Below the pieces are notes generated by a model. The model worked only from the letters and a program-made list of their open reading frames with translations. It searched no databases and was not told the DNA's origin. The translations under genes and the position numbers were made by a program. Shown here one piece after another: positions 2 through 20,485 of a stretch of DNA of 20,485 nt. This stretch comes from a candidate division TA06 bacterium SM23_40 (GTDB lineage Bacteria; LJUI01; SM1-40): contig LJUI01000029.1 in the NCBI GenBank assembly GCA_001303705.1, forward strand, positions 1 through 20,485, read 5' to 3'. Position 1 is the first letter of the stretch; the number at the start of each line of letters is the position of its first letter.

Positions 2-661
2 ACCTCGGTTACTGTCATGGACGACAGCACCTACACGGAACCACTCACCGGAAGCCTCTGGCCCGGTGCCACCCTGTACATACAACTGGAGGGAGATGAT
101 TGGAATCCCTCGTATATCGATCCCGCCCTGGTCATCATCACCAGCGGCCCGGATCCCTACGGGATCGGGGTGGCTCTCATCGAGACCGGCACATCAACGG
201 GCCTGTACCGTGGTACAGCGGAGATCCAGGCCTCGAGTGACGACGCGAATAACCAGATCGGAACCGGCCCCCTCGATACCCTCCTCATACGCGCCTTCGT
301 CGATCCCGCAGTGTGCGACACCGTTACCATCGTATCGATCGGGGTTGGCGACGACGATGTGGCCGATCTTCAGAAGATCGAGGAGGTCTGCTACCTGCAC
401 CAGAATCACCCCAATCCGTTCGGCGGCGCCACCCGGATCACCTATCGGGTCGGCGAGGCTGTTCACACGAGGCTCGAGATCTACAACATCTCCGGCCAAC
501 TCGTCCGAACGCTCATCGACGAACCGGTGTCGTCGGGCGTCCACTCGATCCAGTGGGATGGACGAAATAGCAATGGAGACGCCGTCCGGAGCGGCATCTA
601 CTTCTACCGCCTCCAGGCAGGCGCTTCCAGCGACTCGAGGAAGATGATCATTCTGAGATAG
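2..661 (+). CDS. Secreted repeat-type protein with C-terminal sorting domain (3' part only)
   Basis: The reading frame is open to the left edge, so the gene starts outside the window; about 219 codons are visible. The last ~85 residues are a classic FCB-superphylum C-terminal sorting / FlgD-Ig-like domain: HQNHPNPFGGATRITY, then LEIYNISGQLVRTL, SGVHSIQWDGRNSNG and SGIYFYRL, ending in a short basic tail (RKMIILR). Such domains direct secretion and surface attachment in T9SS-type systems. The region before it (DDSTYTEPLTGSLWPGATLY, GIGVALIETG, STGLYRGTAEI) looks like one unit of a beta-rich repeat used many times in large extracellular proteins of these phyla, so the full protein may be very long; that is inference. 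There is no transmembrane segment in the visible part. No other member of a secretion system is seen nearby. Confidence 0.85.
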   Translation, partial: TSVTVMDDSTYTEPLTGSLWPGATLYIQLEGDDWNPSYIDPALVIITSGPDPYGIGVALIETGTSTGLYRGTAEIQASSDDANNQIGTGPLDTLLIRAFVDPAVCDTVTIVSIGVGDDDVADLQKIEEVCYLHQNHPNPFGGATRITYRVGEAVHTRLEIYNISGQLVRTLIDEPVSSGVHSIQWDGRNSNGDAVRSGIYFYRLQAGASSDSRKMIILR

Positions 662-7166: not shown

Positions 7167-7204
7167 GGAGGTAGATGACCTATACTGCTACAGGAAGGCT
7201 TCAC

Positions 7205-7210
7205 AGGGGG
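7205..7210 (+). promoter_or_regulatory. Shine-Dalgarno site for the first M16 peptidase
   Basis: AGGGGG sits 6 nt ahead of the ATG at 7217. The other candidate, GGAGGT at 7167-7172, lies only 2 nt before the ATG at 7175 and overlaps the predicted transcription start, so it is unlikely to be used. Confidence 0.6.
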
Positions 7211-7216
7211 ATTCCC

Positions 7217-8557
7217 ATGCATCTCGACCTCATCGCACTCGCAGTCGTCGCAGCCGCGGTCTCCGTCGGCCCCGCCTTCAGCCAGACCCTCGGAATAGAG
7301 GAATACAGGCTCGATAATGGCCTGACGATCCTGGTGCGCGAGGATCATTCCTCGCCGGTCGTCTCCGTTCAGGTCTGGTACCGCGTGGGGTCTCGGAACG
7401 ACAGGAGCGGGACAACCGGCATCTCCCATTTCCTCGAACACATGATGTTCGAAGGAACAGAACGATACGGTCCAGGGGAGATCGAACGCATCGTCAGACG
7501 GAATGGCGGGGAGAAGAACGCATTCACCTCGCGCGACTACACAGCATACTATGAAAACCTGGCGAGCGATCGCTATGAGATCGCCATCGAACTCGAAGCC
7601 GATCGCATGCGAAATCTGGTACTCGATCCTGAGCGGATCTCCCGTGAGCGGGGTGCCGTGTCCGAGGAGCGACGGCTGCGCGATAACTCGCGGACTGGCA
7701 GGCTATACGAGGAGCTTATCGCTGCTGCCTATGTCGCCCATCCCTATCAGTGGCCCATACTCGGGTGGATGTCGGACATTGAATCGATTAGCCGCGAGGA
7801 TCTCCTCCACCACTATCGCACATACTACGCTCCCAACAATGCGATCGTGGTCATCATAGGTGATGTCTCCCCTGAGGAGGCATATCGCAAAGTCAAACGC
7901 TATTTCGGGAAGATCCCGCCAGGTGAAGAGCCGCCTCAGGTGAGGACCAGAGAGCCGCATCAGAAGGGAGAACGTCGCGTCGAGGTACGCAAACAGGCCG
8001 AGACGCCCTACGTTCTGGTGGCCTTCCATGCTCCCGAGATCGGGCATCCTGACCAGTACGTCCTGGATGTCATCAGCGAAATCATCTCCACAGGCAGAAG
8101 CTCGCGACTGTACCGATCCCTCGTCCGGGAGCGGGAGATCGCACTCTCAGCCTGGGGCGGGTACGAGGCCCGCACCGACCCGTCGCTCTTCTATTGCGGC
8201 GGGACGCCAAGAGCCGGGCACACGACCGACGAACTCGAGGAAGGTATCTATTCCGAACTCAAACATCTCATAGAGGAACCGGTATCGGACCGGGAGCTCA
8301 CAAAAGCGATCAATCAGATCGAAGCCCGACTCATCTTCAGCCTCGACCGGAATTTCTACCTCGGGGTACAGATCGGACGAAGCGCGACAATGCTCTCCCA
8401 TCACTACCTCGAGGACCTTGTCGCGAGGATCAGGGCTGTGACGGCTGAAGACATCATGCGGGTAGCTGGCGAGCACTTTGTGCCCGAAAACCGGACCGTC
8501 GCAATCCTCATCCCTGAGGGAAAGACGTCGGACCGCCTTCGCCAGCCCACGTACTGA
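7217..8557 (+). CDS. M16 (insulinase/pitrilysin-type) zinc peptidase, catalytically intact, exported
   Basis: The 446-residue protein starts with a signal peptide (MHLDLIALAVVAAAVSVGPAFS) and should act in the periplasm or cell envelope. M16 peptidases hold zinc with an inverted HxxEH motif, seen here as H71-F-L-E74-H75 in GISHFLEHMMFEGT; the distal zinc ligand is E150 or E151 in AVSEERRLRDN. A second, non-catalytic M16 domain follows (ITYxxNN-type segment YYAPNNAIVVIIGDV, then STGRSSRLYRSLV and the C-terminal strands). The family cleaves short or unfolded peptides inside a clamshell of two ~220-residue halves. The next gene encodes a partner with a dead zinc site, so the active enzyme is probably a heterodimer, as in mitochondrial processing peptidase and many bacterial M16 pairs. 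The start was chosen from the promoter position, the ribosome site and the signal peptide. Natural substrates are unknown. Confidence 0.9.
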   Translation: MHLDLIALAVVAAAVSVGPAFSQTLGIEEYRLDNGLTILVREDHSSPVVSVQVWYRVGSRNDRSGTTGISHFLEHMMFEGTERYGPGEIERIVRRNGGEKNAFTSRDYTAYYENLASDRYEIAIELEADRMRNLVLDPERISRERGAVSEERRLRDNSRTGRLYEELIAAAYVAHPYQWPILGWMSDIESISREDLLHHYRTYYAPNNAIVVIIGDVSPEEAYRKVKRYFGKIPPGEEPPQVRTREPHQKGERRVEVRKQAETPYVLVAFHAPEIGHPDQYVLDVISEIISTGRSSRLYRSLVREREIALSAWGGYEARTDPSLFYCGGTPRAGHTTDELEEGIYSELKHLIEEPVSDRELTKAINQIEARLIFSLDRNFYLGVQIGRSATMLSHHYLEDLVARIRAVTAEDIMRVAGEHFVPENRTVAILIPEGKTSDRLRQPTY

Positions 8558-8682
8558 TCTGCGTTGGCACATGAGAGGGCCGTGATCCTTCGCGATTACC
8601 CAAGCCATCTGCTCGCTGAGAGTAGTGAGCCTGTTCCTCTCGCCTCACGAGGCAACATGTCTATTGCTGATAGGAGACGCTC

Positions 8683-10077
8683 ATGCACCGATCGCTGATC
8701 GCCATAACGCTACTGTTGACGACACTGATCACAGTCAGCCCAGTCCAATCTGCTGCGGAGAAGACCGAAATGGCACTCCCAACTCCACACCGCCACGTAT
8801 TCGAGAACGGCCTTGCCGTCCTGACGGTCGAACGCCACCAACTCCCTATCGTCGAGTTGAGGGCCATGATCCGCGCCGGCGTGCGGCAGGAGGTGGATGA
8901 CGAGGCGGGCCTGGCTAACCTCGTGGCACGGCTCCTCGTCCACGGCACCCGTGAGCGCTCGGCAATCGAGATCGCCGAAGCCATCGACTATGTAGGCGGG
9001 CGGCTCGACACGTATGCCTCGGATGATGCCTCCTACGTATCTATCTCTGTCCTGTCGCGGGATCTCCTGCTCGGGCTCGACCTCCTGTGTGAGCTCCTGA
9101 CGGCGCCGACATTTCCTGAGGAGGAACTCGAACGAGAGCGCGGTCTCGTCCTTACTGAGATGGCGCAGCGCAAGGATGATCCGCGGACAGTCGTGGGAGA
9201 TGCATTCCGCGAGGCAGTGTTCGAGGACCACCCCTACCATCGACCTGTCACCGGATATGAGGAGACAGTCACATCTCTGACACGCGAGGCAATTCTCTCG
9301 TTCTATGAGCGTTTCTATCGTCCCAACAATTGTGCGATCGCCGCCGTGGGCGACTTCGATCCTGACAACCTGATTGAGGAATTGGGTAAGCGGCTCGAGA
9401 CGTGGGAACGACGTGACGTGCCCGCTGTGGAGCCGAAGACCCCCAGGCCCATCAAGAAGTCCGAGCTCAAGCTCATCGATATGGACATCTCCCAGTCTTA
9501 TGCCCGGTTCGGCCACCACGGCATCAAACGCAATCACCCCGACTACTATGCGATATCCGTCATGAATCGGATTCTGGGGGCTGTCGGATCCGGACGGATC
9601 TTCAGAGAGGTGAGAGAGGAACGGGGGTTGGCGTACGATGCGCGCGCCAGATTCCCGAGCCTTCTCGACCTCGGCACCTTCTATGCCTCGTTCGAGACGA
9701 AAATCGAGAGCACACAAGAGGCGCTCGACGTCACCCTCGACCAGATTCGCAGAATGAAGACACGAGGCGTGACCAGCGAAGAACTGGCAGATGCGAAGAG
9801 CTACTTGACAGGCCACTTCCCGCTTACGTTCGAGACCGGAAGACAGCTCGCTGCGATCCTGCTTGATATCCAACTCTTCGATTTGGGCCCTGAGTACCTT
9901 GCTGAATATCTGGATACTATCGAGTCAGTCACCAAGAAAGACATCAAACGTGTCGCCCAGCAGTATCTCGATCCGGAAAAGATGATCTTCGTCGTGGTCA
10001 CCAGGCTGGAAGATCTCTCGCTCGACGTGCCGGGCATCGAGCAACCGGAGCAACAAACGGAGAAAGATATGCACTAG
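8683..10077 (+). CDS. M16-family protein lacking the zinc site (likely non-catalytic partner)
   Basis: This 464-residue exported protein (signal peptide MHRSLIAITLLLTTLITVSPVQSA) has the same two-domain M16 layout as its upstream neighbour: VFENGLAVLTVERHQLP, RAGVRQEVDDEAGLANL, then FYRPNNCAIAAVGDF and GSGRIFREVREERGLAY. Where the neighbour has HFLEH, this protein reads N79-L-V-A82-R83, so both His and the catalytic Glu are gone. Known M16 pairs combine one active and one inactive subunit that helps bind substrate, the obvious model here. AGGAGA at 8672-8677 gives a good ribosome site. The two genes are 125 bp apart and no new promoter was recognised between them, so co-transcription is likely but not shown. 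No clear terminator follows; GC-rich inverted sequence is present around 10080-10125. Confidence 0.88.
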   Translation: MHRSLIAITLLLTTLITVSPVQSAAEKTEMALPTPHRHVFENGLAVLTVERHQLPIVELRAMIRAGVRQEVDDEAGLANLVARLLVHGTRERSAIEIAEAIDYVGGRLDTYASDDASYVSISVLSRDLLLGLDLLCELLTAPTFPEEELERERGLVLTEMAQRKDDPRTVVGDAFREAVFEDHPYHRPVTGYEETVTSLTREAILSFYERFYRPNNCAIAAVGDFDPDNLIEELGKRLETWERRDVPAVEPKTPRPIKKSELKLIDMDISQSYARFGHHGIKRNHPDYYAISVMNRILGAVGSGRIFREVREERGLAYDARARFPSLLDLGTFYASFETKIESTQEALDVTLDQIRRMKTRGVTSEELADAKSYLTGHFPLTFETGRQLAAILLDIQLFDLGPEYLAEYLDTIESVTKKDIKRVAQQYLDPEKMIFVVVTRLEDLSLDVPGIEQPEQQTEKDMH

Positions 10078-11066: not shown

Positions 11067-13130
11067 ATGAAATACTTATCGATGATTCCCATGGCTCTCC
11101 TGCTCCTGGGTGGCGCCCTGTACCCCGCTGTCGCTCAGGAGGAAGAGGAGGAGCTGCCGATCTATACGATCGAAGAGCTCGTCGTAGTGGGCGAGCGCCT
11201 GGAACCAGGGATGAACCTGGAGGTGTCACAGCAAGAAGTCGCAGCGAGGGCCACGCGCGATGTGGGAGCTCTCTTCAGGACCATACCCCAGGCAGGAGCA
11301 ATCCGCCGCGGTGGTACAGGTCTGGATCCTGTGGTTCGCGGCTTCCGGGGCGAGCAGTTGACGATCCTCGTCGACGGTGCGGCACAGGCGTGGGCAGCAT
11401 GTCCGAACCGCATGGATCCGCCGACGATGCACATCGAGCCCGAGGATCTACAGAAGATCGAGCTCTTCCCGGGACCGTACACCGTGCGCTTCGGCTCGTC
11501 AGTCGGCGGCGTCGTCAATCTCGTCATGACGAGGCCGCCGCGGGTCTCGCACGCCGTGGTCCATGGCACTGTCACCTCCGGGTACGAGAGTGCCTACGAG
11601 GGACGCCGCATCCGTGGAGAGCTCTCGGCGAACTGGCCCTGGGGGGATCTGACGCTGACCGGCGCAGCCAAGGATTATCGGAATTACGAAGATGGGCGCG
11701 GTGACGAGGTCAGTGCGGCCTTCCGCACGAACAGCTACTCGGTGAAGCTCGGGGCGTCTCCCACATCGAACCAGCGCATCCAATTTTCGCACCGGCAGTC
11801 ATTCGCAAGGGATATGGCCTATCCGGCACTGCCCATGGACGCGAGAAAAGACGACACGCAATTCTATGCGCTCGACTACCGGCTGCACCGCCGCGCCCCA
11901 TACAACATGACGCTGACAACAAGGCTCTGGGCCAGCCTTGTCGACCACGTCATGGACAATTCCCTGAAGCCCAACGCAACAATGGTCACCGCCGTCACCG
12001 ATGCCCACACACGCGCCAGGGGAGGTCGGGCAGAAGGCCAGGTGATGCTAAAGGGCGGCCACCGCCTCTATATTGGTGCCGACTACTCCAGGCACTTCCA
12101 GAAGGGGTTCCGGACGAGGGACTTCCTCATGGGGCCGATGGCCGGCACAACGCTCTTCGACATCGTCTGGCCAGATGCGGAGATGGAGACCATAGGGGGG
12201 TTCGGAGAGCTTCGATGGACGCTCTCTCCCACCCTCCTGGCAACGGTGGGCGCACGAGTCGACAGAGCCACGGGCAGAGCGGATAACCCGGAGGCCGCGT
12301 TCGAAGCTCTCTATCCGGAAGATCTCGAGCGAACCGATGTGGTACCCTCCGGCCAGGTCGGACTGAGCTGGCAGGCTACCCCTCATCTGGAGCTTTCCAC
12401 CAAGGTAGGGACAGGCGCGAGGGTACCGAGCGTCGAGGAGCTGTACATCTATTTGCTGCCGGTCGGGCTAGACCCGTATGACTACCTCGGCGATCCGACC
12501 CTCGAGCCGGAACGCAACATACAGGGAGAAGTGCGCGGAGCCATCGAGCTCGCACCGGCGCGCATCGAGGCGACTCTCTTCCACAGCCGGGTCAGCGATT
12601 ACGTATCCGCCCGCATCGATACTACGGTCACCTCTCGGTCACCGGGAGCGCTGGGGGTGAAGCGCTTCACCTCGATATCGACAGCAACCATCTCCGGGGG
12701 ACACCTCAGGGCGGCGCTCGACCTCGGTCGGGGATTCGAGCTTTCAGGCAGCGTGGCCGCCAGCCTGGGTCGGGACGAAGATGCGGACGAAGACCTCCCG
12801 GAGATGGCGCCGCCGGAGGCGAGAATGTCGCTCTGCTATTGCACCCCCGGGGAACTCTTCCGCGGAGAGGTCGAGGGACGCTTCGTTGCAAAGCAGGACC
12901 GGATATCCGAGAGCTTCGGCGAGACGGAGACGGCAGGATTTGGGGTGTGCAACGCCCGCGCCTGGCTGAACCTCGGTTCCCATGTGACGCTCAGAGCAGG
13001 TGTAGATAATCTGTTCGATCACTACTACCGTGAACACTTGAATCGAAATCACAAAGTTGATGGCTCGTCCATTGCCGAGCCCGGACGCAGTCTTTCGGTT
13101 GAGTTGACAGCTGGACTGGGCACGCGGTGA
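11067..13130 (+). CDS. oprC: TonB-dependent copper receptor, OprC/NosA type
   Basis: This 687-residue outer membrane receptor has a signal peptide (MKYLSMIPMALLLLGGALYPAVA), a TonB-box-like segment (TIEELVVVG, ~34-42), a plug domain (~55-160) and a ~520-residue beta-barrel. Family assignment rests on the plug motif WAACPNRMDPPTMHI, diagnostic of OprC/NosA receptors, in which C112 and M116 form CxxxM. The second copper motif, HxM, is present as H294-V-M296 in LVDHVMDN. In Pseudomonas OprC these two motifs bind copper, so copper import across the outer membrane is the likely role. It would need TonB-ExbBD, not encoded here. GGAAGGA at 11052-11058 is the ribosome site. The barrel ends in GLGTR instead of the common terminal aromatic residue, a small oddity. 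The gene follows the Cys-rich ORF and is closed by a strong terminator. Confidence 0.9.
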   Translation: MKYLSMIPMALLLLGGALYPAVAQEEEEELPIYTIEELVVVGERLEPGMNLEVSQQEVAARATRDVGALFRTIPQAGAIRRGGTGLDPVVRGFRGEQLTILVDGAAQAWAACPNRMDPPTMHIEPEDLQKIELFPGPYTVRFGSSVGGVVNLVMTRPPRVSHAVVHGTVTSGYESAYEGRRIRGELSANWPWGDLTLTGAAKDYRNYEDGRGDEVSAAFRTNSYSVKLGASPTSNQRIQFSHRQSFARDMAYPALPMDARKDDTQFYALDYRLHRRAPYNMTLTTRLWASLVDHVMDNSLKPNATMVTAVTDAHTRARGGRAEGQVMLKGGHRLYIGADYSRHFQKGFRTRDFLMGPMAGTTLFDIVWPDAEMETIGGFGELRWTLSPTLLATVGARVDRATGRADNPEAAFEALYPEDLERTDVVPSGQVGLSWQATPHLELSTKVGTGARVPSVEELYIYLLPVGLDPYDYLGDPTLEPERNIQGEVRGAIELAPARIEATLFHSRVSDYVSARIDTTVTSRSPGALGVKRFTSISTATISGGHLRAALDLGRGFELSGSVAASLGRDEDADEDLPEMAPPEARMSLCYCTPGELFRGEVEGRFVAKQDRISESFGETETAGFGVCNARAWLNLGSHVTLRAGVDNLFDHYYREHLNRNHKVDGSSIAEPGRSLSVELTAGLGTR

Positions 13131-13301: not shown

Positions 13302-13838
13302 TCATGTGCCCGAGGCCTCTTCGGGCCACTTCTTGGCCATCTCCTGTATCGCCGCCATGGCGGCCCCGTACTGCCGCTTCTCCACAAGCGCCGTAACGAG
13401 TTTCACATGACGGATCCGCTCGGATCGGTCGCTATCGCCGCTCAACTCATCGAGATCGAAGACCTTCACGCCCGAGCCGAGTGCCTCGCCCGGACTGCTC
13501 CCCGAGTCGGGTACGATCCCAATGCCACTAGGCCCGGCCGCCTCGTCCGATGTTGGCGACGTCGGCTCAGCTTCACCAGCCTCTGGTGCTGGGCCCGCGC
13601 CCCGCTGCTCTCCCTCCGCTGCGCCATCGGTGTGCGTCGCAGACTCAATATGCTCTGTCTCCCCCGCCATGACCCTGCCGTAGTGCGTGATATCGAGGTT
13701 GTTATTCGCGCCCTGCGTGCTGCCCTCTTGCTTCTTCCTTTCGTCCTCGGCGGGCTCTTCCGGCTTCAGGAGCCGCTCCAGGGGCGAACGTTCGCGCTTC
13801 TCAGCATGCAGCTCCTTGAGCCGCTCGGTGATGTCCAT
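13302..13838 (-). CDS. Acidic, mostly disordered protein with helical C-terminus; third gene of the TPR operon
   Basis: No family is recognised. The 178-residue protein starts with a charged helix (MDITERLKELHAEKRERSPL). It then runs through a long low-complexity stretch rich in Gly, Glu, Ala, Ser and Pro (~30-135), and ends in amphipathic helices (RIRHVKLVTALVEKRQYGAA, then MAAIQEMAKKW) that resemble one TPR-like helical pair. There is no signal peptide or membrane segment, so it should be cytoplasmic. Its start is 5 nt beyond the stop of the 493-residue gene, and its ribosome site (AAAGG) overlaps that stop codon, so translation is likely coupled. A plausible role is a flexible linker or adaptor that joins the two TPR proteins made by the same operon; this is inference from composition and position. 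Confidence 0.75.
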   Translation of the reverse strand: MDITERLKELHAEKRERSPLERLLKPEEPAEDERKKQEGSTQGANNNLDITHYGRVMAGETEHIESATHTDGAAEGEQRGAGPAPEAGEAEPTSPTSDEAAGPSGIGIVPDSGSSPGEALGSGVKVFDLDELSGDSDRSERIRHVKLVTALVEKRQYGAAMAAIQEMAKKWPEEASGT

Positions 13839-13843
13839 CGTTT

Positions 13844-15325
13844 CTACCTTTCGCCTGCCATATGCGGATATGCCGCGAGCAATGCCCGCAGCTCATCATT
13901 GCCCGGATCTATCTGCTGTGCGCGCTTCCAGGCGACCACAGCCTCCTCATCCCTCTCCAGCTGACGGAGGGCCTTCCCCAGATTGAAATAGGCGGTGGCG
14001 TAGTTCGTGCGCCTGCCCAACGCCTCCTGAAAGTGCTTCACCGCCTCCTCATACTCTCCCTTTTCATAGAACGCCAGGCCGAGGTTGTTCACCGCCTCAG
14101 CGAACTCAGGCTCGAGTTCGAGTGCGCGGCGAAAAGCGAGAATCGCCTCATCCGACCGGCCCAGCTCGCTCATCACCAGCCCGAGGTTATTGTAGGCCTC
14201 GGCGGAGTCCGGGTTCAATTCCAGCGCCTGGGTGAGCTCGAGGCGCGCAGCATCGAACGCACCGCGATAGAAGAGCGCTACCGCCCGATCGTTATGGCGA
14301 CGAGCACCAGCAAGACGTTCCCGCTCCTCTTCCTCTTCGCGGCGTTTCCGTTCTCCTTCGAGGAACTCGAATACCTGACGGTTCGATTCGCCGATCCCAT
14401 CGACGAGCTTCACGAGTCGCGTCGATCTCTCACGGTCGAGACGGACTATTTCACTCAGGGCCTGCTCAAGCTCGCCAAGCTTCCCCTCGATTGCTCTGCT
14501 CACCTCGAGCGTCTTCTCCGCATATCCCTCGAATGAGCTAACGAGACGATCCTCCAGCGCCTTGTACGCTCGGGCGAGATCCGTCAACTTCTCGACGATC
14601 TCAGATTGCTGACGCCCGACTGACGCCAGTTGCTCGACTGCCTCCTTCTGATGTGCACTCGACTGTCGCTGCTCATTCGCTATCTCGGCAAGGCGCTCGG
14701 CATTCTCGGCATCGCACTTGGCCGACCTGTCGCTATTCATCGTCTCTATCTTGAGGAGTGCATCGAGCCTCCCTGCAAGCTCCTTGCCCGATGTCTCTAT
14801 CGAGCCGGCGATCGCCGGGAGTTCCTTGCCCATCGTCTCTATCGAGCCGGCAATCGTCTCGCTCTGCTCCTTGAGCTCCTGAACGAATGCGGCGACCTCC
14901 TGCTGGCGCGTGGCCCCTTCGGCCGCTGCGCGTGAGAGCGCCTCCAGCTTCTCTCCCAGCCCTTCCTTGCCGGCGACCGCCTCCTTCAGCTCTCCAGTAG
15001 CACGCGTCCCGACCTCAATACTTTTCTCGATCCGACCGGCCCCCGCCTTGGCCTCATCGGCCATCTGACCAAGGGCTTTTGTCACGCCCTCCCATTCGCG
15101 ATGAAGCTCGCTCGCCATATCTTTTAGCAGAGGACCGATCTCTCCGAGCTTCGCAGCGCCGCTCTCTTTGCGCGCACTCTTCGCCTCATGGAGGATGTGC
15201 ACGAGGGCGGCAAGGGCACACCGCTTTTCTCCCTTGTCGTACAGCTCACATGCTTCCCGCCGACACTCTATGAATCGCTTCTCCTCAGGCGATTCACGAT
15301 CGAAGACAAACGGACATTGCTTCAT
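13844..15325 (-). CDS. Coiled-coil / TPR protein with N-terminal four-Cys motif; second gene of the TPR operon
   Basis: The 493-residue protein has three parts. Residues 1-40 contain four cysteines (C4, C21, C26, C36) in MKQCPFVF, FIECRREACELYD and EKRCAL, a pattern that suggests a small metal or Fe-S site. Residues ~45-335 are almost purely helical and rich in Ala, Glu, Lys and Ser, a long coiled coil reminiscent of chemoreceptor signalling rods but without the conserved receptor tip. It contains a 14-residue tandem duplication. Residues ~340-480 are four canonical TPRs (AEAYNNLGLVMSELGRSDEA; AEAVNNLGLAFYEKGEYEEA; ATAYFNLGKALRQLERDEEA). No signal peptide or membrane segment is visible. AAGGGAC gives a good ribosome site. 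The gene lies 32 nt after the giant TPR gene and 5 nt before the small acidic one. The operon suggests a cytoplasmic protein assembly; no catalytic role can be assigned. Confidence 0.85.
   Translation of the reverse strand: MKQCPFVFDRESPEEKRFIECRREACELYDKGEKRCALAALVHILHEAKSARKESGAAKLGEIGPLLKDMASELHREWEGVTKALGQMADEAKAGAGRIEKSIEVGTRATGELKEAVAGKEGLGEKLEALSRAAAEGATRQQEVAAFVQELKEQSETIAGSIETMGKELPAIAGSIETSGKELAGRLDALLKIETMNSDRSAKCDAENAERLAEIANEQRQSSAHQKEAVEQLASVGRQQSEIVEKLTDLARAYKALEDRLVSSFEGYAEKTLEVSRAIEGKLGELEQALSEIVRLDRERSTRLVKLVDGIGESNRQVFEFLEGERKRREEEEERERLAGARRHNDRAVALFYRGAFDAARLELTQALELNPDSAEAYNNLGLVMSELGRSDEAILAFRRALELEPEFAEAVNNLGLAFYEKGEYEEAVKHFQEALGRRTNYATAYFNLGKALRQLERDEEAVVAWKRAQQIDPGNDELRALLAAYPHMAGER
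14781..14856 (-). repeat. Tandem duplication of 42 bp inside the coiled-coil gene
   Basis: Bases 14781-14814 and 14823-14856 agree at 30 of 34 positions with a 42-bp offset, which is 14 codons. The protein therefore reads IAGSIETMGKELPA followed by IAGSIETSGKELAG, two heptad pairs that lengthen the coiled coil without changing its register. Confidence 0.8.
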
Positions 15326-15357: not shown

Positions 15358-18300
15358 TCATGAAACGGTCTGTTCGGTCACATGGCTCGCCGGTACCGGA
15401 GCCCGACCTCCGCGAATGATCCCCTCCAGTACTTTCCCGCGTCCCTCCAACTCATCCGCAACCAGCCGCGTATACGCGCGCTCCAACCGCCTCTTGGCGT
15501 CCCGATACGGCACGCCACCCTCCATCAACCGGCCGAGAGCCGCAACCGTCCCCAGTCGATCGCCCATCTTCTCGCACGCAAGCGCAAGCTGATGGAAGAC
15601 CTCACGGGATGTCTCATCGGCCTCCCTACCCTCTGCGCCATCGCCTACATCTGTTGCCATCAGCACCTCGGCCGCCCCGCAGTAATAATGTCGTTCCATG
15701 AGGCATCGCGCCACCTCACAGGCACGCATTCGCTCGAGACGGCCCGTGCGGCCGCGGAACATGAGAAGCTGCTCGGCTTCGTCGAGCCGGCCGGCCCCGC
15801 GGAGCTGCCGTGCCGCCACTATCCTCAACTCCTCGCTCTCCGGATCGGCCTCGAGTCGCCTCATCGTTCGCTCAAGCTCCAACTGCACGCTCCTCGTGTG
15901 GAGGCGCTCGAATTCGCGACATACTGCGTTCTGATCCGATGCCTCCTGCGCGGCCTGTTGAGCCTCCTTCCTCGCTTCTTCGAGGCTACCGAGGCGGTAC
16001 AACGAATGGCTCAACCCAAGGTGAATCCGCGCTCGTAGATCACGATCCTGCTCTGCGTCCAGAACCGGAGCGAGAACATCGCGCGCACTCTCAACCTCTC
16101 CCCTCGCGAGCAGCAGATCACCAAGCGCATAGCTCGCATCCGTCTGGGTCGCATCGAGGCGGATTATCCGCCGCAGACGATCCATCACCACTTCCACCGC
16201 TGTCTCATCGCGTTCGGCAAGCTCGGCGAGTCTGGCAGTGGCCGTCTCCAGATCGCCCTTTTCGATCAGCATCGATGTAAGGGCGTCGAGAACGACAGGC
16301 AACTTCCCGGACTGCTCAGCCATCTCCGCAAGTCTCTCGACGACGGATCCGAGTTCATCCGGATCGAGTTCCACGATCCTGACCGAATGCCGCACCGCCT
16401 TCTGGAACTCCCCATCCTGCACGTATGCCTGCACCAGCGCATGGTGACACGGAACACTCGATTCCTGCGCCGAAAGGATCTTCTCCAACGCGCTGATCCT
16501 ACGATCTCGGGAGCGAGGGTCCATTTCCCCCGTCTCTTGAAGTATCTCTACCGCCTGGTTGAAGTTCCCCCGCGCCACATGGCAATCTGCAAGCCTGAAT
16601 CTCGCATCAACATTCCTCGGGGATCTCTCTATGATCCGGTGCAGCTCGCGCACGACGGTCTCGTGCAGCCCGGAATCGAGCGCCAGCGCCTTTGACAGTA
16701 TCGGAACAGCCTGGCCATCATATCCTTTCTTGATCTGTGCCCTCCCCAGGGCGAGCAGGAGACGCGCCTCCTCGCCTCTATCCTGAATGATGCTGTTGAT
16801 TCGCGCAATGACCCGATCGACATACGCCTCGTCGATCTCCATGGCCTGTTCCAGGTCGGCCACCGCCTCCTCTGCTCGATCGAGAGACGAGAGAACAACA
16901 CCCCGCGCATAGTGAGCGTCGGCGCTCGCCGGGTCGACGCCGATCAGAGTCGACAATTCCTCGACGACCCGAGTCCTCCTATCAGGAGCGATCTTCCCGA
17001 TCGTCATGAACTCCTCGACAGCGTGCGGTACATCCCCCGCGACACCGTAGATCTTCCCCAGCACGTAGTGCGCCGGAATATTATGCTTGTCGATCTCGAG
17101 CACCTTCCTGAGGATGCCTGTCGCCTCATCTGCCAGTGAACGATCCAACTGGACCGCTCCGAGGATCGGCCCTCCGGATTGGGAGAGATTCCCACGCTCC
17201 GCCATGCCCTCGCCAAGTCGGAGGTGGAAGTAGGCGCTCTCTTCCTCAGGCACCACATCGAGAGCCCGCTTCGCCTCCTGGATCACTTGATCGAACAGAC
17301 CCCGATCCCGATAGGCATCGACCAGGGCCTTCCGTATTGCGATGTTCTTCTCGTCGGCCTCGAGGATAGTCTGGAGGCGCGCGACGACCTGATCGAACCT
17401 GTGCGGGTCACTGGCCAGAACCATTTCGTAGTGGCCTGCGGCCTCCTGCACATTCCCCGCTTCCAGGAGAAGCTCCGCCAGTCCCATCTGGGCGTCGACC
17501 GCTTTCGGATTGCGCGCCAGAACGCGCTCATAGGCACCGATCACCTCTTCTGTCTGTCCGGGATCGATGCGGTGGCAGCGCAGGAGTTCCTCCATCATCT
17601 CGGCGTACTTCCCCGCCATCCCGTACGTCTCCCCCAGGGCGAGGGTCGCCAGGAATTCATCCGCACCGAGGTCGCGCACGCGCTCATAGAGGGCGATCAC
17701 CCGGGGCAGGCTCTTCTCCTCGGTTCGGGCTAAGAGATCGATGTGCGGGAGTATCGATGTCACCCGTTTCGGTGCGTCCTCTGCGGCCTCGGCGAGAAGC
17801 TCGATCGCGCGAGCCCAGTCGCCGGTTCGCCGCAGAATACCTGCCAGGCATACCTTCACCTGCCATTCCTTGCCGGCCTGCTCGTATACCCGCTCGATGC
17901 CGGCCTTCGCCCTTTCCAATCCCTCCTCACCGCAATCCGCCTGATGCTCAAAGACTGCGATTGCGCGTTCGATCTCCCCCTTGTCACTAAAGATCCGCCC
18001 AACGAGATCGAGAGTCTCCACGTCATCCGTCCTCGCCTCGAGCACACGATAGAGTCGCGGTACGATCTCCTGGGCCATCCCGCGGTCTGCCTCATATGCC
18101 ATCTTGAGATACTGCGCTGCCTCAGCGAACTCGCCGCTGTCCAAAAGGGCATCTACCAGATAACTGAGTGTGAGACTGTGCGCAGGATCACGCTCGAAGA
18201 CCGCACGATATCGATCGAGCACCTCGGCCTTCGATCCGGGAGCGACCTCCAGAACGCGCGAGTACTCGCTGAGCGCCGTCTCGATCTGCCCCTTGCTCAG

Positions 18301-19245
18301 ATATGCGTCGCCGAGCGACAGAAAGACGTTCACCTGACTCGCGTCCAGGCGCACGATCTCCCGATAGGACTTGATCGCATCATCGGTACTGATCGTCCCC
18401 GCGTCGAGTGACTCAGCAACCAGGCGTGTCGCATCCTGGAACCGACCGCCGGCAACATAGAACTCGAGGAGCGCTTTGAGGGATTCAGCTGATGCAGGTC
18501 CGATTGCCTCCAGCGCATTCGTCGCCTGCTCAAGAGCGGCCCGATCGAATTCGACGGCCTTCCTGAATTCACGCACAGCCGACGAAGCCTGGCCGGACTG
18601 CGCGTACAAATCTCCCAGCACCAGACACGGCCGATGGTCGCCATAGTTTGCCCGTGCGATCTCGTGGCATTCGACTATTACCGGTTGGATCTCCTCTGGC
18701 GATATCTCTACGACATCGCGGAAGAGGCCGAATGCCGTTTCGAGATCCTTCTTCTCCACAGCGAGAAGCGCCAGGCAGTAGTGTACGATCAGATCCTTCG
18801 TCCTCTTCTCCCGATCGCCCTTGTACTTGCTGATATTCTCGTGCATCTGCCGATAGCGACTTTCGAGCGGTTCCATATCCTGGGGATCGAGTGCGCGGAG
18901 CGTACGGTGGGCGTTCTCGAAGTCCCGCCGGCCGATGTATGTCTCAAGGAGAAACTCACCGGTCTCGGGAGGTTGCTCACCTCGGTAGTGCAGGTCCTCG
19001 ACGACGCCGAGCAGGAGTTCGAGCTGGTGAGGGTCAGCGGCTGCGGCGCGCTTGAAGACCGAGGCGGCCTCTTTCCTCTGCCCGTTCTCGAAGTACACAC
19101 TTCCCAGTTCGGCAAGCAGAGCGAAATGCTCCCCTTTCTTCAGCTCCTTCTCAAGAAGACGAATGGCGCGGTCGTACTTCCCCTCTACCCGGTGCTTCCT
19201 CGCTCGATCGATCGCGCCCTCTCCTCCGAATATGGGAAAAGCCAC
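15358..19245 (-). CDS. Giant TPR-type repeat protein (1295 aa) with a 52-residue super-repeat; first gene of the TPR operon
   Basis: Translation starts at GTG 19245, 6 nt after a strong AGGAGGA (19252-19258). The protein lacks a signal peptide and membrane segments, so it should be cytoplasmic. Almost all of it is helical repeat. The N-terminal ~240 residues are ordinary TPR-like pairs (AELGSVYFENGQRKEAASVF). From residue 244 to about 1060 the repeat changes to a regular 52-residue unit: a 34-residue TPR (A..LG..Y...G....A......L..DP) plus an 18-residue third helix (....VV.RL..II..D). By hand count 13 of 15 units are exactly 52 residues; exceptions are an 18-residue insert at 504-521 and one 88-residue unit at 626-713. 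The end (~1075-1260) returns to TPR-like helices and closes with a GVPYRDAKRRLERA segment of a kind seen at the end of other TPR proteins. TPR solenoids bind partner proteins; partner and process are unknown. Confidence 0.88.
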   Translation of the reverse strand: MAFPIFGGEGAIDRARKHRVEGKYDRAIRLLEKELKKGEHFALLAELGSVYFENGQRKEAASVFKRAAAADPHQLELLLGVVEDLHYRGEQPPETGEFLLETYIGRRDFENAHRTLRALDPQDMEPLESRYRQMHENISKYKGDREKRTKDLIVHYCLALLAVEKKDLETAFGLFRDVVEISPEEIQPVIVECHEIARANYGDHRPCLVLGDLYAQSGQASSAVREFRKAVEFDRAALEQATNALEAIGPASAESLKALLEFYVAGGRFQDATRLVAESLDAGTISTDDAIKSYREIVRLDASQVNVFLSLGDAYLSKGQIETALSEYSRVLEVAPGSKAEVLDRYRAVFERDPAHSLTLSYLVDALLDSGEFAEAAQYLKMAYEADRGMAQEIVPRLYRVLEARTDDVETLDLVGRIFSDKGEIERAIAVFEHQADCGEEGLERAKAGIERVYEQAGKEWQVKVCLAGILRRTGDWARAIELLAEAAEDAPKRVTSILPHIDLLARTEEKSLPRVIALYERVRDLGADEFLATLALGETYGMAGKYAEMMEELLRCHRIDPGQTEEVIGAYERVLARNPKAVDAQMGLAELLLEAGNVQEAAGHYEMVLASDPHRFDQVVARLQTILEADEKNIAIRKALVDAYRDRGLFDQVIQEAKRALDVVPEEESAYFHLRLGEGMAERGNLSQSGGPILGAVQLDRSLADEATGILRKVLEIDKHNIPAHYVLGKIYGVAGDVPHAVEEFMTIGKIAPDRRTRVVEELSTLIGVDPASADAHYARGVVLSSLDRAEEAVADLEQAMEIDEAYVDRVIARINSIIQDRGEEARLLLALGRAQIKKGYDGQAVPILSKALALDSGLHETVVRELHRIIERSPRNVDARFRLADCHVARGNFNQAVEILQETGEMDPRSRDRRISALEKILSAQESSVPCHHALVQAYVQDGEFQKAVRHSVRIVELDPDELGSVVERLAEMAEQSGKLPVVLDALTSMLIEKGDLETATARLAELAERDETAVEVVMDRLRRIIRLDATQTDASYALGDLLLARGEVESARDVLAPVLDAEQDRDLRARIHLGLSHSLYRLGSLEEARKEAQQAAQEASDQNAVCREFERLHTRSVQLELERTMRRLEADPESEELRIVAARQLRGAGRLDEAEQLLMFRGRTGRLERMRACEVARCLMERHYYCGAAEVLMATDVGDGAEGREADETSREVFHQLALACEKMGDRLGTVAALGRLMEGGVPYRDAKRRLERAYTRLVADELEGRGKVLEGIIRGGRAPVPASHVTEQTVS

Positions 19246-19418: not shown

Positions 19419-20039
19419 CTAGACGAGATCAATCAGTTCTTCGATCTTCTCCAACAGCATCCTCCGCCCCTCGGTCGTAGAGATATCGACGTAGAACGAG
19501 GGCTCAATCCTCTGTACCTCATAGAGCGCCTCCGCGAACTCACCGAGATTGCAGTGAGCTTTCGCCTTCACCATCCTGATATCGGCAGCAGAGACACTCG
19601 CATCGTGAGCGAATACGTAGTCTGGATCGGCTGCAAGCAGCAGGCTCGCGGTCGTGACCGCCTCCTCGCTGTCTTCAGAGTCGGAGAAGACGATGGCCCG
19701 TCCTGCGAGCGGGTCGATGAGCGACGGGCCTTCGTCCATCGCTGTCTGGAAGTTGGCTAATGCCTCGTCAAGATCGTCCAGTTTGGCCAGGGACCAGCCA
19801 AGACCGTTGTATGCATCGGCGAAGCGGCCATCCAGGTCGAGTGCTTCCTCGAATCTCTCCCGAGCCCTGACGTAGTCACCCACCTCGAACGCCGACCATC
19901 CCGCAGCGGTGAGAGAGCTCACGGTATTTCCCTCATCCCCCCCGCCACCCAGCCCACACCCGAGTGCGGCCACGAGCGCACCGATGCCGACTAGGGCAGC
20001 AAGGCGCGTGTACGACCACACCCTACTGAGGAATTCCAC
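19419..20039 (-). CDS. TPR-containing probable lipoprotein
   Basis: The 206-residue protein starts at GTG 20039, 5 nt after a strong AGGAGGA (20045-20051); the longer frame from 20054 would place the ribosome site inside the gene. The N-terminus is a basic-hydrophobic export signal (WSYTRLAALVGIGALVAALGC). Its ALGC end is an imperfect lipobox, making C28 the likely lipid-attached residue, followed by a Gly-rich linker (GLGGGGDEG). The mature part has TPR pairs: AGWSAFEVGDYVRARERFEE, DAYNGLGWSLAKLDDLDEA, then DIRMVKAKAHCNLGEFAEAL. It should sit on a membrane facing the periplasm and bind a partner protein. It lies 66 bp downstream of a sorting-domain protein gene on the same strand, so the pair may share a transcript, and 173 bp before the giant TPR gene. 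No specific function is recognised. Confidence 0.8.
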   Translation of the reverse strand: MEFLSRVWSYTRLAALVGIGALVAALGCGLGGGGDEGNTVSSLTAAGWSAFEVGDYVRARERFEEALDLDGRFADAYNGLGWSLAKLDDLDEALANFQTAMDEGPSLIDPLAGRAIVFSDSEDSEEAVTTASLLLAADPDYVFAHDASVSAADIRMVKAKAHCNLGEFAEALYEVQRIEPSFYVDISTTEGRRMLLEKIEELIDLV

Positions 20040-20044
20040 TGGAC

Positions 20045-20051
20045 TCCTCCT
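20045..20051 (-). promoter_or_regulatory. Shine-Dalgarno site that shortens the lipoprotein start
   Basis: AGGAGGA on the minus strand, 5 nt ahead of GTG 20039. It lies within the longer frame that would begin at GTG 20054 and so argues for the shorter start. Confidence 0.7.
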
Positions 20052-20105
20052 CACCCAACGCCGCGTCTACTGATAATCTGTCACCAGCCCTGTACCATAG
20101 TCTGG

Positions 20106-20485
20106 TTACTTCAGGTAGACGAGCCTTCTGGACTCAGATCGGCCACCGACCTCAAGCCGATAGTAGTAGATCCCGGTCGCCACGCGCCTGCCGCCGTCGT
20201 CGAGGCCTCCCCAGACAGATCGATGCTCGCCGGGGACCCGGGGCCCCGCGACGAGTGTCGCCACCCGCTGACCGAGCAGATTATATATGGCCAAGCTGAC
20301 GTCGATGGGCGCCTCCCCGGTCCATTCGGACGGCGGCACAGTATAGGCAATCGTGGTGCTCAGGCCGAACGGATTAGGGTAGTTCTGTTCCAGAAGCAGC
20401 GGCCGGGGCGCAAGAGCGATCTCCGGCCCCCCGCCGTCGAGCATCAGCACATAGACTCCGAGACGATCGATCCCCACCCTCACCT
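20106..20485 (-). CDS. Secreted protein with C-terminal sorting domain (3' part only)
   Basis: The frame is open to the right edge; about 125 codons are visible and the true start is probably outside. Nearly the whole visible part is the C-terminal sorting / FlgD-Ig-like domain: LLLEQNYPNPFGLSTTIAY, then VSLAIYNLLGQRVATL, GEHRSVWGGLDDGGRR, and TGIYYYRLEVGGRSESRRLV ending in YLK. The pattern matches the domain at the left end of the window, with the same basic residues before the last strand. The protein should be exported and displayed on the cell surface. Its enzymatic or structural role lies in the missing N-terminal part. The TPR lipoprotein gene follows on the same strand. Confidence 0.85.
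   Translation of the reverse strand, partial: VRVGIDRLGVYVLMLDGGGPEIALAPRPLLLEQNYPNPFGLSTTIAYTVPPSEWTGEAPIDVSLAIYNLLGQRVATLVAGPRVPGEHRSVWGGLDDGGRRVATGIYYYRLEVGGRSESRRLVYLK

Follow-up and report, generated by a model that had tools for sequence, protein, structure and literature searches.

A 52-residue variant of the tetratricopeptide repeat in a giant bacterial protein and the partner gene that accompanies it

The giant gene and its repeat array

The window analysed here is the whole 20,485-nucleotide stretch of contig LJUI01000029.1 from the candidate division TA06 bacterium SM23_40. One of its genes encodes a protein of 1295 aa, hereafter the giant, most of which is an array of 52-residue units. 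Each unit forms three helices in structural models (h1, h2 and h3). The protein adds a new variant to the tetratricopeptide repeat (TPR) solenoids without amounting to a fold class of its own. The adjacent gene encodes a protein with an N-terminal cysteine motif, hereafter the partner. The giant gene and the parts of its array are as follows.

15358-19245, minus strand: open reading frame of the giant, 1295 aa, a 52-residue three-helix solenoid protein
15994-19131, minus strand: whole array of 52-residue units, residues ~39-1084 (scan with a position-specific scoring matrix, PSSM; starts 39-1033)
17716-18495, minus strand: five strict 52-residue units, starts 251/303/355/407/459 (PSSM scan; helices in the AlphaFold 2, AF2, model)
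17662-17715, minus strand: 18-residue extra helix of the 70-residue joint, residues 511-528 (H316-331 in the AF2 model of residues 195-560)
17350-17661, minus strand: two strict 52-residue units, starts 529 and 581 (PSSM scan)
17242-17349, minus strand: 36-residue piece, residues 633-668, which makes the 88-residue step (PSSM scan)
15994-17241, minus strand: eight strict 52-residue units, the first at 669 and the last at 1033 (PSSM scan; AF2 helices)

The initial annotation had proposed units of exactly 52 residues between residues 244 and 1025 (window 16171-18516, minus strand). Its anchors were located at residues 244, 296, 348, 400 and 452, at 574 and 626, and at 714, 766, 818, 870, 922 and 974; the gap from 452 to 574 was 122 residues (2x52+18), and that from 626 to 714 was 88. 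When the whole protein was subjected to BLOSUM62 autocorrelation, the highest peak was found at 52 (z 12.2), followed by 104 (9.5), 34 (7.3), 156 and 208. Under a stricter null, in which blocks of 12-40 residues were permuted so that local sequence was kept, z was 11.7 at 52 versus 6.8 at 34 for the window protein, and 52 scored above 34 in each of the 13 members of the family that were tested. The exact period of 52 was thus confirmed. Secondary peaks at 34, 70, 122, 174 and 226 correspond to 52n+18 or 52-18 and stem from the likeness between h2 and the h3 that lies 18 residues further on.

The unit was defined by an iterated ungapped PSSM over the giant family, in which 126 spacings of exactly 52 were obtained. 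The h1 pattern is approximately xxLGxxYxxxG and that of h2 is DEAVxxLxxALxxDP. Together, they make up the TPR consensus, whose positions are filled by L, G/A, Y, G, A, F/L and P. The h3 pattern, xxVLExLxxILxxxP, is the h2 pattern again 18 residues later. In the window protein, units were found to start at residues 39, 91, 150, 202, 251, 303, 355, 407, 459, 529, 581, 633 and 669 and then every 52 residues up to 1033. Therefore, the units proposed in residues 244-1025 exist, but the array is longer, spanning residues ~39-1084. Likewise, the predicted insert of 18 residues is present, but it is one extra helix, and the supposed single unit of 88 was resolved into a 52-residue unit and a 36-residue piece, whose sequence suggests that it is probably a plain two-helix TPR unit. 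The six successive units placed after this step fitted their anchors (714-974), and one more anchor was found at 1026.

Steps other than 52 (59, 49, 70, 36 and 37) occurred at matching places, within a few residues, in most orthologues; the joints common to most of them were 59-62, 70-71 (that of the extra helix), 86-88 and 37. Therefore, the array has a fixed build rather than one that expands and contracts. No tandem repeat was found at the DNA level by Tandem Repeats Finder, so the array must be old, and recent DNA tandem duplication was ruled out as its origin. The sequences of odd and even units showed no sign of alternation (similarity 0.31 for the same parity and 0.33 for different parity). 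This comparison was meant to probe layer swapping, and its outcome is neutral toward a symmetric screw.

Predicted structure and classification of the unit

Two different stretches of the giant were modelled with AF2: residues 663-1110 (m9ce9e055c50b; predicted local distance difference test, pLDDT, 88.7; predicted template modelling score, pTM, 0.69) and residues 195-560 (m2d8aa951c70c; pLDDT 89.9, pTM 0.77). Both models contained three helices in each 52-residue stretch, with usual lengths of 13, 14 and 17 residues (for example H61-73, H77-90 and H92-108 in the model of residues 663-1110, recurring every 52), and h2 and h3 were mostly connected by one residue. The suggestion that each unit has three helices was thus borne out, and no plain 34-residue TPRs with irregular linkers were seen in either model.

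These data bear on the simplest alternative, namely, that the giant is an ordinary TPR protein composed of 34-residue repeats and 18-residue linkers, the period of 52 being incidental. Consistent with this alternative, Pfam and NCBIfam score h1-h2 as generic TPRs, and 34 is the third autocorrelation peak. However, the 18-residue part was confidently predicted as a helix throughout the units of the two models; h3 has its own conserved hydrophobic pattern and a constant length in orthologues down to 15-24% identity; and the peak at 34 never rose above that at 52, while the series 34/70/122/174/226 fits the similarity of h3 to h2. Periodicity, the conserved h3 and the models therefore largely refute this explanation, which is considered highly improbable.

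The stacking of the helices was studied by superposition with VIA-align. Model residues 41-162 (h3-h1-h2-h3-h1-h2-h3) were superimposed on the seven helices of the designed consensus TPR protein CTPR3 (1na0) over 117 aa at 3.2 A, and the joint region was superimposed on TPR1 of HOP (1elw) over 117 aa at 3.1 A. Therefore, consecutive helices of the models stack in a TPR-like manner whatever their place in the unit. Over longer distances, the models aligned with CTPR8/16 over 267-271 aa at 13-15 A, and longer stretches compared with CTPR or OGT gave 13-20 A. The best long-range overlap was that with Sec17 (9ng2_G), 188 aa at 4.0 A. The poor fit to CTPR and OGT and the better fit to Sec17 are consistent with a straighter rod in the models but are not proof of it.

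According to a second alternative, the unit is an armadillo (ARM)-like three-helix repeat in which h3 or h1 crosses the other two helices, all units have the same orientation, and a regular superhelix results. In a review of alpha-solenoids, the ARM repeat is described as a three-helix repeat of 42 residues with a perpendicular H1, and the PPR repeat as one of 31-36 residues (PMC11514114). The lack of a parity signal in the unit sequences also agrees with units of equal orientation. Nevertheless, the giant does not have the ARM period of ~42, seven successive helices fitted seven successive TPR helices at ~3 A in both models, so that a crossing helix could not be accommodated in that stretch, and the h1-h2 signature is that of TPR rather than ARM. 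This alternative is thus unlikely. No ARM, HEAT or PUF chain was present among the structure-comparison matches listed for the models, and the matches in a viral structure library were mostly TPR/SEL1 proteins of giant viruses with query TM-scores of no more than 0.25.

In terms of the properties of classical TPR proteins, h1-h2 fit the consensus positions and matched Pfam TPR families with E-values down to 2e-64, and antiparallel two-layer stacking was seen in the superpositions of the predicted models on 1na0 and 1elw; a succession of two-helix, 34-residue repeats was not found, since only isolated steps of 34-37 were present. The NCBIfam scores were all below the cut-offs: MamA, 152.6 of 200 bits; PrsT, 147.9 of 312; LapB, 104 of 363; and BcsC, 58.7 of 858. 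Pfam and NCBIfam yielded generic TPR matches only, and none of their models describes the 52-residue unit. SEL1 and PPR families were absent from the 24 Pfam families listed. A sequence search of solved structures returned designed CTPR, OGT, MamA, LapB and BcsC among generic TPRs; PADLOC gave only a generic TPR match and a weak match to a coiled-coil region; and nothing relevant on TPR-like repeats of 52 or 54 residues was found in the open-access literature. As for the proposal of an undescribed repeat class, Pfam and NCBIfam have no model for the unit, but the h1-h2 signature and the TPR-like stacking mark it as TPR-derived. A description as a TPR-solenoid variant with 1.5 TPRs per unit suits it better than one as a separate repeat superfamily.

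Distribution of the giant, the partner gene and neighbouring genes

A broad search revealed full-length orthologues of ~1245-1310 aa, with 15-24% identity in the multiple alignment, in many unrelated bacterial families. Members of the family share this length, a dominant period of 52, conserved joints and a partner in the same genome. The giant was present in 10/10, 4/4, 3/3 and 2/2 of the genomes checked from four phyla represented by more than one genome; the window genome was the only one available of its phylum. There is normally one copy per genome, and in one genome, the giant is split across two contigs. A scan of genome contigs identified candidate division WOR-3 Zod_Metabat.185 and the metagenome-assembled genome 'Desulfuromonas sp. 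SDB' as carriers; the latter may be misnamed, as its contig falls in the small phylum of G030. The same scan gave a match in Staphylococcus pettenkoferi (E 1e-6, 198 residues). It may be concluded that the giant represents a new conserved protein family, probably with a scaffolding function.

The partner gene and the small gene that follows it are located as follows.

13844-15325, minus strand: partner gene, 493 aa, next to the giant gene; N-terminal Cys4, helical middle, C-terminal TPRs
15218-15325, minus strand: N-terminal C4 motif of the partner (C4, C21, C26, C36; homologue comparison)
13898-14296, minus strand: C-terminal TPR domain of the partner, ~residues 344-476 (Pfam TPR_1/TPR_11)
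13302-13838, minus strand: small third gene, 178 aa, mostly disordered-looking, motif GVKVFDLDEL (homologues beside the partner in G132 and G269)

The partner was found in 14 of 386 sampled genomes (matches covering the middle region, with E below 1e-46), and exactly these genomes contained the giant, with no exception in the sample, although two of these giants were found only after the partner had pointed to the genome, and the sensitive giant profile covered part of the non-carriers. The naive co-occurrence p-value of 7e-26 overstates independence because the carriers are clustered in about ten families. The two genes are adjacent in 9 of the 14 carriers and also in G100, and they overlap by 4 bp in the WOR-3-like lineage. 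The N-terminal motif of the partner is CPF...C...C...Y/F-D...C. Three of its cysteines were invariant in 13/13 homologues, and the first (CP) was present in 12/13, the 13th sequence being trimmed. This motif may bind metal, and the middle of the protein, poor in Pro and Gly in most homologues and very variable in length (homologues have 386-1189 aa overall), is probably a coiled coil. In the longest form, from the SDB/G100 lineage (L045:9407-12976, 1189 aa), the helical middle is greatly extended, is rich in Q, N and S, and shows an internal period near 67. This is also the gene in which the contigs of G030, G098 and G099 terminate.

The small third gene begins 5 bp after the partner gene. Its homologues (L128:4390-4857 and L132:4089-4601) also stand beside the partner, and the proteins of the window, G132 and G269 have the motifs ITHYG and V.F.LDEL in common; the motif V.F.LDEL / K.G.G.R.F.LDEL is duplicated in two of the three genomes. 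No Pfam family was found for the small protein. Its short motifs may plausibly be TPR ligands.

Genes for M16 peptidases are convergent to the pair of partner and small gene in the window (7175-10077), at L128:2341-3699 and at L132:878-3560, that is, in two phyla, the window's and the one common to G132 and G269. A functional link of the peptidase with the pair is possible. In the window, a TonB receptor gene (11067-13130) lies between the M16 genes and the pair. Just upstream of the giant, on the same strand, there is a gene for a 211-aa TPR protein with a lipoprotein-like N-terminus (19419-20054, minus strand). At both edges of the window (2-661 and 20106-20483, minus strand), there are C-terminal FlgD-like tails, NHPNPF/EQNYPNPF, which resemble those of surface proteins sorted in a type IX-like or similar way. 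Elsewhere, the order era-like GTPase, giant, partner and ClpB-like gene was observed in three genomes of one phylum (L068:6471-14948, L069 and L126), and a CarD-like gene (L066:10786-11265, minus strand) lies directly upstream of the giant in G361; the names era-like, ClpB-like and CarD-like reflect sequence appearance only.

These neighbourhoods were considered in relation to a third alternative, in which the giant and partner serve a specific machine, such as secretion, gliding motility or envelope assembly, instead of a general cytoplasmic scaffold. The M16 peptidase genes close to the partner and small gene, both in the window and in G132 and G269 (two genomes of one phylum), speak for it, as does the weak sub-cutoff similarity to TPR proteins of the PrsT, LapB and Tgl types. 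On the other hand, the neighbours differ across phyla, being era- and ClpB-like in one lineage and CarD-like in another, the NCBIfam scores are far under the curated cut-offs, and neither a signal peptide nor a membrane segment was evident in the giant (maximum 19-residue hydropathy 0.92) or the window partner. A dedicated machine is thus rather doubtful.

Proposed role and comparison with known systems

Probably, the giant is a long cytoplasmic alpha-solenoid of 1.5-TPR units that acts as a single-copy scaffold together with the Cys4 partner. This explanation builds on the observed period of 52, on modelled units that each have three helices, on an architecture conserved among orthologues, and on the co-occurrence with the partner. 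Each unit would consist of a canonical TPR hairpin (h1, h2) and an h3 that copies the h2 pattern, with consecutive helices stacked antiparallel in two layers, as suggested by the model alignments. Since the number of helices per unit is odd, continuous stacking would make each helix type alternate between the layers from unit to unit, each unit being turned by ~180 degrees relative to the previous one. Curvature would then partly cancel, and the rod would be straighter than the classical TPR superhelix, while the extra helix and the two-helix unit would each act as a phase reset at a fixed position. Perhaps the grooves of the giant bind short motifs, FDLDEL in the small third protein being one candidate. 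A stronger form of this proposal, in which the flip of 180 degrees per repeat gives a nearly straight rod with two equivalent faces and the giant, in one copy per genome, is a scaffold used universally in these phyla beside a coiled-coil partner that binds metal, is put forward tentatively.

Several points weigh against the scaffold explanation. The AF2 alignments consisted of 4 sequences only, including a paralogous stretch from within the giant, and left out the closer orthologues L063-L070. The straightness of the rod and the 180-degree step are deduced from helix superpositions. Contact between giant and partner is predicted from co-occurrence, and in five genomes the two genes lie apart from each other. 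The metal binding and coiled coil of the partner were read off its sequence, and heptad power was weak in the window's own partner. Finally, the role of a scaffold is very general and hence hard to falsify.

If true, the flipped-rod proposal would describe a previously undescribed cytoplasmic structural system in poorly studied bacterial phyla, the cell biology of which is almost wholly uncharted. Helix-repeat proteins are usually seen as fixed stacks of two-helix (TPR, SEL1, PPR) or three-helix (ARM, PUF) repeats. A TPR-derived unit of 1.5 hairpins that keeps exactly 52 residues even among highly diverged orthologues would offer a natural way of building TPR rods that are straight instead of curved, and also a useful design template. 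Together with its previously unnamed Cys/coiled-coil/TPR partner, the giant would make a concrete, testable two-component scaffold.

Among known systems, Sec17/alpha-SNAP, a eukaryotic SNARE adaptor, is an elongated helix stack for which, to our knowledge, no regular 52-residue sequence repeat is known; its match to the models may reflect common geometry only. SEL1, PPR and HAT proteins are, like the giant, solenoids of helical repeats, but they have two helices per repeat and shorter periods (31-44 residues).

Strict TPR-like arrays with a period of 54 were observed in other bacterial giants (L071:5666-13687, a 2724-aa frame in L036 and a 2619-aa frame in L035; also L037, L038 and L039). In the three largest (L071, L036 and L035), z at 54 was 16-24, and there were up to 29 successive steps of 54. 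Their unit (34+20) contains LA..Y...G twice, 20 residues apart and the second time inside h2, followed by a B-type helix. We know of no dedicated family name for these arrays. They resemble the giant in their 1.5-TPR length and long strict arrays, whereas the 52-residue type has an h2 terminating in DP and a B-like h3. By sequence, they appear to be another 1.5-TPR type that is not orthologous to the window giant.

The ARM repeat shares three helices per repeat with the giant, but it has 42 residues and a perpendicular H1, whereas the unit of the giant has 52 residues, a TPR signature and helices that all stack in the models. Classical TPR proteins form a right-handed superhelix with about 8 repeats per turn. 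Their consensus (TPR_1/TPR_2/TPR_8/TPR_19; CTPR 1na0 and 9qhb; OGT 1w3b) is common to h1-h2 of the giant, and the local antiparallel two-layer stacking is alike over the 117 aa superimposed on 1na0. In contrast to them, the giant has a third helix in each unit, a period of 52 rather than 34 and, in the predicted models, a diverging long-range path.

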